Positions 59,364 through 62,353 of a stretch of 64,000 nucleotides of DNA are shown here, in pieces (the stretch's first letter is position 1; every line of letters begins with the position of its first letter). This DNA comes from Comamonadaceae bacterium (GTDB lineage: Bacteria > Pseudomonadota > Gammaproteobacteria > Burkholderiales > Burkholderiaceae_C), in NCBI GenBank assembly GCA_947443645.1, contig CANEXF010000009.1, forward strand, positions 62,001 to 126,000. Direction: 5' to 3'. Below the pieces are notes generated by a model that had not been told where the DNA came from, made no database searches, and was given only the letters and a program-made list of their open reading frames with translations. The position numbers and the translations under genes were made by a program.

Positions 59364-60506
59364 TTAGGCCAGCGCGCGGCGTGCCAGCACGGCATCCGAC
59401 AAGGTTTGCAGCACGGCCAGCGAGTCGTCCCAGGCCAGGCAGGCATCGGTGATGCTCTTGCCGTATTCGAGTGCGCGGGCGTCATCCTTGCCGGGCGTGA
59501 ATTTTTGCGCACCGGCCTGCAAGTGGCTTTCAACCATCAGGCCAAACACCTGACGCGAGCCGCTGGCTACCTGGCCGGCGATGTCGCGCGCGACCTCGAT
59601 CTGCTTTTCGTGCTGCTTGGAACTGTTGGCGTGGCTGCAATCGACCATCAGTGTCGCGGGCAGCTTGGCCGCAGCCAACTCTTTGCAGGCAGCGGTGACA
59701 CTGGCCACATCGTAATTGGGCGCCTTGCCGCCGCGCAGAATCACGTGGCAATCCGGATTGCCGTTGGTTTGCACAATCGCCACCTGGCCATTTTTGTGCA
59801 CCGACAAAAAGTGATGTCCGCGTGCGGCGGCCTGGATCGCATCGGTGGCAATGCGAATATTGCCATCCGTGCCATTTTTGAAGCCTATGGGCGCAGACAG
59901 ACCAGAGGCCAGCTCGCGGTGCACCTGACTTTCGGTGGTGCGCGCACCAATCGCGCCCCAGGCGATCAGGTCGCCAATGTATTGCGGGGAGATCACATCC
60001 AGAAATTCGCTGCCTGCGGGCAGGTCCAGGCGGTTGATTTCAATCAACAGCTGGCGCGCGATGCGCAGACCTTCATCAATGCGGTAGCTTTCATCGAGGT
60101 AAGGGTCATTGATCAAGCCTTTCCAGCCCACGGTGGTGCGCGGCTTTTCAAAGTACACCCGCATCACGATCTCCAGCGTGCCAGCGTATTTTTTACGCTG
60201 AACCGCCAGCTTGCGCGCGTACTCGAGCGCAGCGGCCGGGTCGTGAATCGAGCACGGACCAATCACCACCAGCAGGCGGTCGTCCGTGCCAGCGATGATG
60301 TTGTGAATGTTGTGGCGGGTCTGCGTGATCAGCGATTCGACGGCGGTGCCGCGTATCGGGAAAAAGCGTATCAAATGCTCTGGCGGAGGTAACACGGTGA
60401 TGTCCTTGATGCGTTCGTCGTCGGTCTGGCTGGTTTTATCGACGCTCGCATACCAGCTGTCGCTGGCGGGTTTCGGCTGGGATTCAGACTGGGCAGGTGT
60501 ATTCAT
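59364..60506 (-). CDS. aroG: 3-deoxy-7-phosphoheptulonate synthase, class I (DAHP synthase)
   Basis: Catalyses PEP + erythrose 4-phosphate to DAHP, the entry to aromatic amino acid synthesis (380 aa). Family marks are VVIGPCSIHDPAAALEYA, RVYFEKPRTTVGWKG, LDVISPQYIGDLIAWGAIGARTTESQ in parts, GFKNGTDGN and MVDCSHANSSKQ. This is the Phe/Tyr-sensitive AroF/G/H type. I choose the ATG at 60506 (AGGA about 8 bases upstream); a GTG sits one codon before it. The transcript leader encodes an aromatic-rich peptide and an attenuator (see 60561-60692). Confidence 0.97.
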   Translation of the reverse strand: MNTPAQSESQPKPASDSWYASVDKTSQTDDERIKDITVLPPPEHLIRFFPIRGTAVESLITQTRHNIHNIIAGTDDRLLVVIGPCSIHDPAAALEYARKLAVQRKKYAGTLEIVMRVYFEKPRTTVGWKGLINDPYLDESYRIDEGLRIARQLLIEINRLDLPAGSEFLDVISPQYIGDLIAWGAIGARTTESQVHRELASGLSAPIGFKNGTDGNIRIATDAIQAAARGHHFLSVHKNGQVAIVQTNGNPDCHVILRGGKAPNYDVASVTAACKELAAAKLPATLMVDCSHANSSKQHEKQIEVARDIAGQVASGSRQVFGLMVESHLQAGAQKFTPGKDDARALEYGKSITDACLAWDDSLAVLQTLSDAVLARRALA

Positions 60507-60560
60507 CACAGACGTCCTTTTAAGATTTCAAAAATTCAGGAAAAAGAAACTAAATATGGC

Positions 60561-60592
60561 AAAAAAAAACCGCCGGGTGTCCGGCGGTTTTT
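60561..60592 (-). terminator. Attenuator terminator in the aroG leader
   Basis: Read on the minus strand: CCGCCGG, loop ACAC, CCGGCGG, then nine T. The 7-bp GC stem is extended by A-T pairs. It lies about 55 bases before the aroG start and 30 bases after the leader-peptide stop codon, in a position to stop transcription before aroG. It is also the only clear terminator downstream of tldD, so it may serve both. Confidence 0.9.
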
Positions 60593-60617
60593 GAAAAATT
60601 TCTTGTGCTGTTTCAGC

Positions 60618-60692
60618 TTACAGAAAGATCTCTCTACCGCCGAAGGCGCTTGAGAACCAAAAGTAAGCAAAATAAAACCTTGCAGTTTGCAT
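60618..60692 (-). CDS. Aromatic-rich leader peptide of aroG (attenuation)
   Basis: Open frame of 24 codons from the ATG at 60690-60692 to TAA at 60618-60620. Residues 6-13 read FYFAYFWF, and in all the peptide has six Phe, two Tyr and one Trp. Codons after this run (SSAFGG) cover a stretch whose RNA can pair either with itself (CGCC/GGCG) or with the 5' arm of the terminator: bases 60636-60644 pair with 60580-60588 over nine contiguous positions. This is the layout of classical ribosome-mediated attenuation by charged tRNA-Phe/Tyr. No clear ribosome site precedes the ATG. A TGCTACATT extended -10-like sequence just upstream would put +1 near the ATG, so translation might be leaderless. Confidence 0.82.
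   Translation of the reverse strand: MQTARFYFAYFWFSSAFGGREIFL
60636..60644 (-). promoter_or_regulatory. Antiterminator segment of the aroG leader
   Basis: RNA UUCGGCGGU lies within leader codons 16-19. It can pair with ACCGCCGGA (60580-60588), the 5' arm of the terminator, to form an antiterminator. Alternatively CGCC (just before) and GGCG form a small hairpin that would free the terminator. Confidence 0.75.
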
Positions 60693-60727
60693 GGATTCGA
60701 ATGTAGCACAGGTCGAAAACAGCCTTC

Positions 60728-62263
60728 TCAGGCGGTTCCGCCCACGGTCAGCCCGTCAATGCGCAAGGTCGGCTGGCCGACGCCGACAGGAACGCTCTGG
60801 CCTTCCTTGCCGCAGGTGCCCACACCGCTGTCGAGCTGCATGTCGTTGCCCATCATGGTCACGCGTGTCAGCGCGTCAGGGCCGTTGCCGACAATCGTCG
60901 CGCCCTTGACCGGGTAAAGAATCTTGCCGTTTTCCACCCAGAAGGCTTCGCTGGCAGAAAACACAAACTTGCCCGAGGTGATGTCGACCTGGCCGCCGCC
61001 AAAGTTGGTGGCGTACAAGCCCTTCTTGATGCTGGCCACAATCTCTTCAGGCGCCTTGTCGCCGCCCAGCATATAGGTGTTAGTCATGCGCGGCATCGGC
61101 ACATGGGCATAGCTCTCGCGCCGGCCATTGCCTGTGGGCTTGACCTTCATCAGGCGCGCATTGAGCGAGTCCTGGATGTAGCCCTTCAAAATGCCGTCTT
61201 CAATCAGCACATTGCGCTGGCTGGCGTTGCCTTCGTCGTCCACATTGAGCGAGCCGCGGCGGTCGGCAATCGTGCCATCGTCCAGCACGGTGACGCCCTT
61301 GGCCGCCACGCGCTGACCGATCTTGCCCGAAAACGCACTTGACCCCTTGCGGTTGAAGTCGCCTTCCAGGCCGTGACCAATCGCCTCGTGCAGCAGAATT
61401 CCGGGCCAGCCCGAGCCCAGCACCACGGTCATCTCACCGGCCGGTGCCGGCCGCGCTTCGAGATTCGTCAGCGCCGCCTTGACGGCATCGGCCACGTACT
61501 GCGCAATCTGCGCGTCGTCAAAATAAGCCAGGCCAAAGCGGCCACCGCCACCACCCGAGCCCACTTCACGGCGCACCTTGCCGCCTTCTTTTTTCTCTGC
61601 AATCACGGTGACGCTCAGGCGCACCAGCGGCCGCACGTCGGCGGCCAGCGTGCCGTCAGCGCGCGCCACCATCACCACGTCGTATTCACTGGCCAGTCCG
61701 GCCATCACCTGCACAATGCGCGGGTCCTTGGCCTTGGCGAATTTTTCAACCTTCTCCAGCAGCTTGACCTTGGCCGTGCTGTCCAGCGTGGCAATTGGGT
61801 CCAGGCCGCTGTAAAGCGAGCGGCTGCTGGCGATTTTTCGCGCAGGTGTTTTCACGCGTCCCGATTGGCTGGCCGCCGAAATACTGCGCACGGTGCGCGC
61901 AGCGTCGAGCAGCGAAGCATCGGAAATATCGTCCGAGTAGGCAAAAGCGGTTTTTTCGCCGCTCACAGCGCGCACGCCCACGCCCTGGTCAATGCTGAAA
62001 GAGCCGGTTTTGACAATGCCTTCTTCCAGGCTCCAGCCTTCGCTGCGGGTGTATTGGAAATACAAATCCGCGTCGTCCGCACCGTGTGAGGTGATTTCAC
62101 CCAAGGCACGGCTCAGGTGCGCTTCCGTCAGGCCAAAAGGCGCAAGCAGCAGCGCCTTGGCAATCTCAAGTCGCCCGGCAGTGGAAGCAGCCGTCGGTCG
62201 GGCTTTGGATGATGCGGTAGACGTGTTCAACGCTGAGGCAGGGGAAGATCGGAGTGAGGTCAT
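60728..62263 (-). CDS. tldD: Metalloprotease TldD
   Basis: Zinc protease subunit (511 aa) that acts with TldE/PmbA on unfolded or modified peptides and on CcdA in E. coli. The zinc-binding helix reads LLHEAIGHGLEGDF, and the family text SGEKTAFAYSDDIS, GGRFGLAYFD and TNTYMLGGDKAPEEI is present. The chosen ATG at 62263 avoids a 26-codon upstream extension without conservation. About 25 residues at its N-terminus are Ser/Ala-rich and extra. It follows rodA by about 90 bases. Confidence 0.95.
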   Translation of the reverse strand: MTSLRSSPASALNTSTASSKARPTAASTAGRLEIAKALLLAPFGLTEAHLSRALGEITSHGADDADLYFQYTRSEGWSLEEGIVKTGSFSIDQGVGVRAVSGEKTAFAYSDDISDASLLDAARTVRSISAASQSGRVKTPARKIASSRSLYSGLDPIATLDSTAKVKLLEKVEKFAKAKDPRIVQVMAGLASEYDVVMVARADGTLAADVRPLVRLSVTVIAEKKEGGKVRREVGSGGGGGRFGLAYFDDAQIAQYVADAVKAALTNLEARPAPAGEMTVVLGSGWPGILLHEAIGHGLEGDFNRKGSSAFSGKIGQRVAAKGVTVLDDGTIADRRGSLNVDDEGNASQRNVLIEDGILKGYIQDSLNARLMKVKPTGNGRRESYAHVPMPRMTNTYMLGGDKAPEEIVASIKKGLYATNFGGGQVDITSGKFVFSASEAFWVENGKILYPVKGATIVGNGPDALTRVTMMGNDMQLDSGVGTCGKEGQSVPVGVGQPTLRIDGLTVGGTA

Positions 62264-62353
62264 GCTGGCATTGTAGGCAGAGCGCTGCGGCCCTGGCTGC
62301 GCGGGGTTATGGCTGGTACAGGGCGGCCAGCCGGCCCCCAATGGGCCAGGCAG

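Follow-up and report, generated by a model that had tools for sequence, protein, structure and literature searches.

The window (the whole stretch of 64,000 nucleotides analyzed here) carries a class I DAHP synthase gene on its minus strand, downstream of tldD (60728-62341, minus strand; NCBIfam PRK10735). The 218-nt intergenic region between the two genes contains a short open reading frame rich in aromatic codons, beginning 35 nt after the end of tldD, and an intrinsic terminator. The features of this region and the gene that it is predicted to regulate are the following.

60700..60708, minus strand: extended −10-like element TGCTACATT, seen in the sequence, ending 7 nt before the leader ATG and placing a predicted transcription start at or beside the A of that ATG
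60618..60692, minus strand: leader open reading frame of 24 codons plus stop, MQTARFYFAYFWFSSAFGGREIFL, seen in the sequence, with no Shine-Dalgarno-like sequence before it
60654..60677, minus strand: candidate regulatory codons 6 to 13, Phe Tyr Phe Ala Tyr Phe Trp Phe, seen in the sequence
60652..60656, minus strand: segment 1, UUCUC, pairing with GAGAG of segment 2 in the predicted fold; comparative support mixed
60636..60644, minus strand: segment 2 core UUCGGCGGU, predicted 5′ strand of the antiterminator (sequence, fold, GGYGG conservation)
60629..60632, minus strand: segment 2b, GAGA, predicted second antiterminator helix, also able to pair with segment 1 (fold, permutation)
60593..60596, minus strand: segment 3b, predicted to pair with 2b, immediately 5′ of the terminator (fold, permutation)
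60580..60588, minus strand: segment 3, ACCGCCGGA, 5′ arm of the terminator and predicted 3′ strand of the antiterminator (sequence, fold, pair counts)
60561..60592, minus strand: intrinsic terminator, a 12-bp hairpin followed by a U tract (sequence, fold, alignment)
59364..60506, minus strand: class I DAHP synthase gene, the predicted regulated gene (open reading frame, NCBIfam), with AAGGA at 60519-60515 upstream of its ATG

The enzyme scores above the cut-offs of NCBIfam models TIGR00034 (aroFGH), NF009395, and NF009396 (the Trp-sensitive AroH subfamily), while its top score is to the AroG equivalog NF006723 yet lies below the cut-off of that model (535.5 versus 568). These scores make the assignment as DAHP synthase firm and leave the isoenzyme letter unsettled. 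The nearest solved structures by sequence are of the AroG type, and several of them are named as Phe sensitive or Phe regulated. A search of the window's own genome gave no class II DAHP synthase match, and the second PF00793 match in that genome is a 285-aa frame adjoining a CTP-synthase-like frame, which from its sequence we take to be KdsA. Because of these two results, the gene at 59364..60506 seems to be the only DAHP synthase of its genome.

The leader frame was reproduced at 60692-60618 on the minus strand exactly as initially annotated, with FYFAYFWF at residues 6 to 13 and seven aromatic residues in these eight positions. In such T-rich DNA, 13 of 3,000 dinucleotide shuffles of the 218-nt intergenic region gave a frame reaching 7 or more aromatic residues in 9, so that a single aromatic run is unusual without being decisive, and the question is settled by comparison. 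For this purpose, 80 DAHP synthase loci were taken from named genomes. Runs of at least 6 aromatic residues in 9 were present in 53 of 78 upstream regions, compared to 0 of 1,466 control tiles from the same loci (the two remaining loci, with less than 200 nt upstream, were left out). When 79 loci were scored for both leader and terminator (L011, with hardly any upstream sequence, L081, and L082 were skipped), 56 had an aromatic frame (at least 5 in 9) followed by a terminator, and two more (L055 and L058) had the frame with no terminator found in the stretch used. No aromatic leader was found in the other 21 of the 79, which include Polynucleobacter, two Cupriavidus loci, Thauera, Azoarcus, and Methylotenera.

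Several of these exceptional loci can be described individually. In three from Polynucleobacter (L026, L027, and L028), about 37 nt separate the end of the tldD match from the start of the DAHP synthase match, and neither an aromatic leader frame nor a terminator was found between the two genes, so that the attenuator seems to be absent there despite the same gene order. At L021, the frame in the leader position reads YHFWHFH and precedes a terminator-like hairpin, and is possibly a leader with His codons in place of several aromatic codons. The leader is missing from two Cupriavidus loci whose DAHP synthase is Comamonadaceae-like (L030 and L032), while a Cupriavidus lacunae locus encoding a more distant DAHP synthase (L066) has one. 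Within Cupriavidus, different DAHP synthase genes thus seem, from their upstream sequences, to differ in regulation.

Codon content gives an indication of what the leader would sense. Of 56 leaders, those of the window and of 55 relatives, 55 contain Tyr codons and 44 contain Trp codons. The initial annotation had proposed coupling to charging of tRNA-Phe and tRNA-Tyr; the codons for both are present, and the frequency of Trp codons widens the predicted specificity, making the signal probably Phe/Tyr/Trp rather than Phe/Tyr. UUU supplies 67% of the Phe codons in the leaders of the 55 relatives versus 18% in the DAHP synthase gene bodies, a bias that may raise sensitivity or may only leave the RNA unstructured.

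Downstream of the aromatic codons, the nine-base pairing of 60644-60636 with the terminator 5′ arm at 60588-60580, a central element of the initial annotation, is contiguous and includes one G.U pair. Folding of the leader RNA gave −46.7 kcal/mol (z = −3.8), a value equaled by none of 200 dinucleotide shuffles. A terminator scan returned only an overlapping, weaker site rather than the 12-bp hairpin, which is plain in the fold.

The pairing is conserved together with the frame. A GGYGG core complementary to the terminator arm is present in 55 of the 56 relatives' leaders (the exception is L067) and in the window; as background, the motif occurs in 36% of length-matched control stretches and in 31% of 60-nt stretches. 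Relative to the leader codons, the core of the 55 relatives and the window lies in frame 0 in 25 cases, frame 2 in 30, and frame 1 in 1, with at least 4 changes of frame on a quick DAHP synthase tree, and the peptide past the aromatic run varies accordingly in sequence (GGREI, PLADREG, NPKAVE, or TAAGEA). Finding the same core in three codon frames argues that the RNA is conserved rather than the peptide. Pairing within a locus is also favored over permuted pairing: the mean energy of own segment 2 with own segment 3 was −20.5 kcal/mol, versus −18.2 (standard deviation, 0.33) for permuted partners, with none of 5,000 permutations reaching the own value. Segment 2 of the Burkholderia type pairs equally well with segment 3 of Comamonadaceae (−22.4) and with that of its own group (−21.7). 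For the second antiterminator helix, formed by GAGRG and pyrimidines directly 5′ of the terminator, permuted partners reached the own value in 2 of 5,000 cases. With 56 of 79 loci carrying frame and terminator, the initially annotated arrangement proved to be conserved in relatives.

Covariation was assessed in an alignment of 55 rows (A1), consisting of the window and 54 of the 55 relatives with a core (L060, a near copy of L053, was left out). Terminator pairing (3:4) is maintained in 96.8% of cells across the 55 rows. Cells with both sides changed numbered 22 for 3:4 versus 7.1 in shuffled alignments and 18 for the antiterminator (2:3) versus 6.9, neither figure being reached in 500 shuffles, although relatedness of the sequences inflates such shuffle-based values; slid controls for both helices had far fewer paired cells. 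Two other 2:3 measures were not above shuffles (reached by 232 and 50 of 500), and the 2:3 percentage is lowered by seven rows whose GGCGG core sits one column off and was left uncorrected. Most of the 2:3 covariation comes from a single column, for which the tree implies 3 to 8 changes, and a tree-aware test had only 2 independent pairs, too few to reach significance, on a quick tree with 18 of 53 inner branches open. The 2:3 covariation thus reflects few evolutionary events.

The small upstream hairpin (1:2), which in the initial annotation completed a 1:2, 2:3, 3:4 scheme, does appear in the fold, with mixed comparative support. Its paired percentage and covariation score were matched by 76 and 137 of 500 shuffles, two tallies (of pairs and of pair types) were reached in 13 and 14 of 500, and permuted partners attained the own energy in 295 of 5,000 cases. 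This hairpin is the least supported part of the scheme.

To describe the distribution of the element, a covariance model (R1) built from A1 was searched against 300 genomes of Burkholderiales at E values up to 0.001, with filters that are strict for such numbers. This gave 77 matches, one in each of 77 genomes, spanning 45 of 135 genera and 14 family groups. DAHP synthase genes in these genomes were located independently, by protein search, with 17 of the R1-positive genomes covered by a second search. All 77 matches lie directly upstream of a DAHP synthase on the same strand, 5 to 144 nt from the start of homology; R1 was trained on sites upstream of DAHP synthase, yet nothing in the model forces a lack of matches elsewhere. 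R1-positive genomes with two DAHP synthases have one element each. In two genomes (G022 and G152), two tandem DAHP synthase genes stand behind a single leader element, and one attenuator may drive both copies. Because 156 of the 233 genomes of the order with a DAHP synthase match carry no R1 match, the element, as detected by this model, is common in the order and not universal. Over 369 genomes of the class, R1 gave 7 matches, of which 4 were outside the order, all 4 beside DAHP synthase, and the element is also present in two family groups outside the order. In the window's own genome, this site scored an E value of 7.7e−16 and the next best 0.968.

A further property of the leader concerns how it is transcribed and translated. 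Transcription starts about 7 nt downstream of a −10 element, a spacing that here falls on the leader ATG. Among close relatives (the 32 leader loci in L001 to L041, without L039 and L040), TGNTANNNT, mostly as TGCTACATT, ends 6 to 8 nt before the leader ATG in 31 of 32, as it does in the window; the extended −10 was first spotted by eye and then compared with controls, where the same pattern preceded 0 of 5,933 control ATGs of those loci (about 1.9 expected from the frequency of the pattern itself). Within the 16 nt preceding the leader ATG, no Shine-Dalgarno-like motif occurs in any of the 32, and a promoter scan returned no −35/−10 pair. Because the −10 spacing puts the start on the ATG and no Shine-Dalgarno-like motif precedes it, translation of the leader probably takes place on a leaderless RNA in the window and its close relatives. 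Leader loci outside this set nearly all lack a −10 at that distance; in Burkholderia-like and Oxalobacteraceae-like loci, a likely −10 (TATAAA or TATAGT) lies mostly about 25 to 40 nt upstream, again without a Shine-Dalgarno-like motif.

These features indicate that the element is very probably a ribosome-mediated transcription attenuator of the classical kind, located before the DAHP synthase gene. The leader frame, its aromatic codons, the terminator, the alternative pairing, and the conservation of all four before DAHP synthase genes can be read directly in the sequences. An aromatic leader frame is present, an intrinsic terminator stands before the gene, and the antiterminator has its 5′ strand downstream of the regulatory codons, an arrangement by which attenuators are recognized. 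At the level of sequence, the attenuator interpretation of the initial annotation is thus supported by the leader and terminator in 56 of 79 loci, the core in 55 of 56, and R1 matches before DAHP synthase in 77 of 77.

In the mechanism that we propose, the start site, leader translation, and stalling are predictions, as are the magnitude of the response and the amino acids that elicit it. RNA polymerase would begin on or next to the leader ATG, trailed through the leader frame by a ribosome. With charged tRNA-Phe, -Tyr, and -Trp plentiful, the ribosome would reach the stop codon and cover segment 2 (GGCGG...GAGAG), allowing the terminator to form and transcription to stop ahead of the gene. 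With any of these tRNAs short, the ribosome would halt within FYFAYFWF, its leading edge masking segment 1 and leaving segment 2 free to pair with the terminator 5′ arm, so that RNA polymerase would continue into the DAHP synthase gene. The geometry is compatible with this sequence of events: in all 56 leaders (55 relatives plus the window), 3 to 6 aromatic codons are so placed that the leading edge of a ribosome on them, taken as 13 nt, would fall between segment 1 and the core.

Folding with a masking ribosome stalled at codon 7, 10, 12, or 13 gave the antiterminator as the best fold at a transcript length of 113. The same fold was best at this length with no ribosome, whereas the terminator was the minimum-energy state of the full-length leader in every state tried. 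The antiterminator being favored at 113 even without a ribosome, and the terminator at full length, the switch must be kinetic.

Other explanations of the same features were weighed against this attenuator. The proximity of tldD, a gene on the same strand whose end is 35 nt from the leader, and the appearance of a 7-of-9 run by composition in 13 of 3,000 shuffles could suggest that the hairpin merely terminates tldD and that the aromatic frame is a chance T-rich stretch. However, tldD is missing from the examined flank in 17 of the 56 leader loci (including 4 with a flank of less than 2.9 kb), and its match ends more than 600 nt away in 12 others, while R1 finds the element only before DAHP synthase and aromatic runs separate upstream regions from control tiles (53/78 versus 0/1,466). 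We regard chance and tldD termination together as very improbable; leader loci without tldD rule out a tldD terminator as the sole explanation, and the hairpin may terminate tldD as well. A functional micropeptide, with the downstream gene a bystander, has a precedent in the trans-acting leader peptide peTrpL of Sinorhizobium meliloti, as described in the accessible part of that report (PMC7298713), but here the peptide is unconserved beyond the aromatic run, with the core in three frames and C termini such as GGRE.., PLADREG, and NPKAVE, and the position before DAHP synthase is constant (77/77). This reading appears just as improbable as the one based on tldD.

Slightly more room, within what is still a very small probability, is left for a leader that works mainly on translation or via Rho instead of through an intrinsic terminator. 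Leader-peptide systems of both kinds exist, and the folding used here gives no measure of termination efficiency. Against this, the 55 aligned rows retain a G+C-rich hairpin with U residues after it, the 5′ arm of this hairpin takes part in the antiterminator pairing, and the AAGGA and ATG of the gene lie about 40 to 55 nt past the hairpin, outside the predicted switch. Control by a T-box or an amino acid riboswitch is the least probable explanation of all. T-boxes do control tyrosine genes elsewhere, according to the consulted portion of one study (PMC1262725), but neither a T-box nor any other Rfam family was found at gathering score in 19 relatives or in window positions 59500-61800, and what is conserved consists of codons and an overlapping pairing.

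A ribosome-mediated attenuator at this position would act at a key step, since DAHP synthase determines the inflow of carbon to aromatic synthesis. In Escherichia coli, three isoenzymes and two repressors, TyrR and TrpR, are described as sharing this control (PMC5343134). The genome of the window, with apparently one DAHP synthase, seems from its sequence to rely instead on one RNA switch responsive to all three products. As a tentative extension, which we consider possible but somewhat short of probable, the leaderless leader RNA could make one attenuator the integrator of Phe, Tyr, and Trp for entry into the shikimate pathway in Burkholderiales: the single DAHP synthase would be released when any of the three is short, as a halted ribosome loaded at the 5′ end would expose the same two-helix antiterminator at whichever codon it stops, and the released RNA of about 130 nt and the aromatic peptide might also act in trans, as in S. 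meliloti. The element provides a regulatory annotation for many genomes, is a candidate new RNA family, and offers a proteobacterial case where attenuation on a leaderless RNA is directly testable.

Among described RNA families, the nearest is a leader-peptide element of enteric bacteria. RF01859 (Phe_leader) gave a weak whole-model match in the window (30.1 bits, E = 0.02; gathering score, 55), and two further Rfam matches were unrelated and weaker; no family reached its gathering score in window positions 59500-61800 or in the 19 relatives. Enteric Phe_leader controls pheA, so the likeness is that of a leader-peptide family, and the differences are the gene, here DAHP synthase and not pheA, and a score below gathering.

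Attenuators for the same enzymatic step have been predicted computationally in gamma-proteobacteria. The accessible portions of PMC2659441 and PMC1173090 list predicted attenuators in Shewanella and Vibrio before aroF or an aroF-type gene and tyrA, with the Shewanella entry referring to an older E. coli paper (Camakaris 1980). These share the enzyme step and the computational nature of the prediction, and differ in their gamma-proteobacterial hosts and in that those portions give no aromatic leader peptide for these genes. Among the matches listed by a full-text literature search, as far as their displayed text extends, no report of a beta-proteobacterial DAHP synthase attenuator was found, and the main text of Naville 2010 (PMC2965389), in the form available, contains no word beginning with "phe," one beginning with "aro," and nothing found on DAHP synthase.

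A transcript that starts on the leader codon itself also has a counterpart. In S. meliloti trpL-trpE(G), according to the available sections of PMC7298713, the leader transcript begins with the ATG of the leader frame, and the released RNA and peptide (peTrpL) act in trans. The shared trait is a transcript starting at the leader ATG, which is predicted here; the S. meliloti leader differs in being a Trp leader before another gene.

The closest known system in function is aroR-aroF of Corynebacterium glutamicum, and the kind of element is in this respect already known. Attenuators of C. glutamicum are reportedly leaderless transcripts, a description attributed to Neshat et al. 2014; in the window, a leaderless leader is predicted from the position of the extended −10. 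In the accessible parts of PMC11802643 and PMC4046766, a Phe-Tyr-Phe leader precedes the DAHP synthase gene, transcription rises on Phe limitation, and Tyr availability is without effect. Both systems have an FYF leader directly before DAHP synthase (residues 6 to 8 in the window), and they differ in that C. glutamicum belongs to another phylum and the window leader additionally has a Trp codon. The known attenuators named in the initial annotation therefore need to be extended by this described DAHP synthase case, while it names no well-described aroG case in beta-proteobacteria, in agreement with the literature found. Compared with aroR-aroF, what appears to be new, from the sequences compared here, is a broad and well-conserved family of DAHP synthase attenuators across Burkholderiales, with members in a few further groups of the class.
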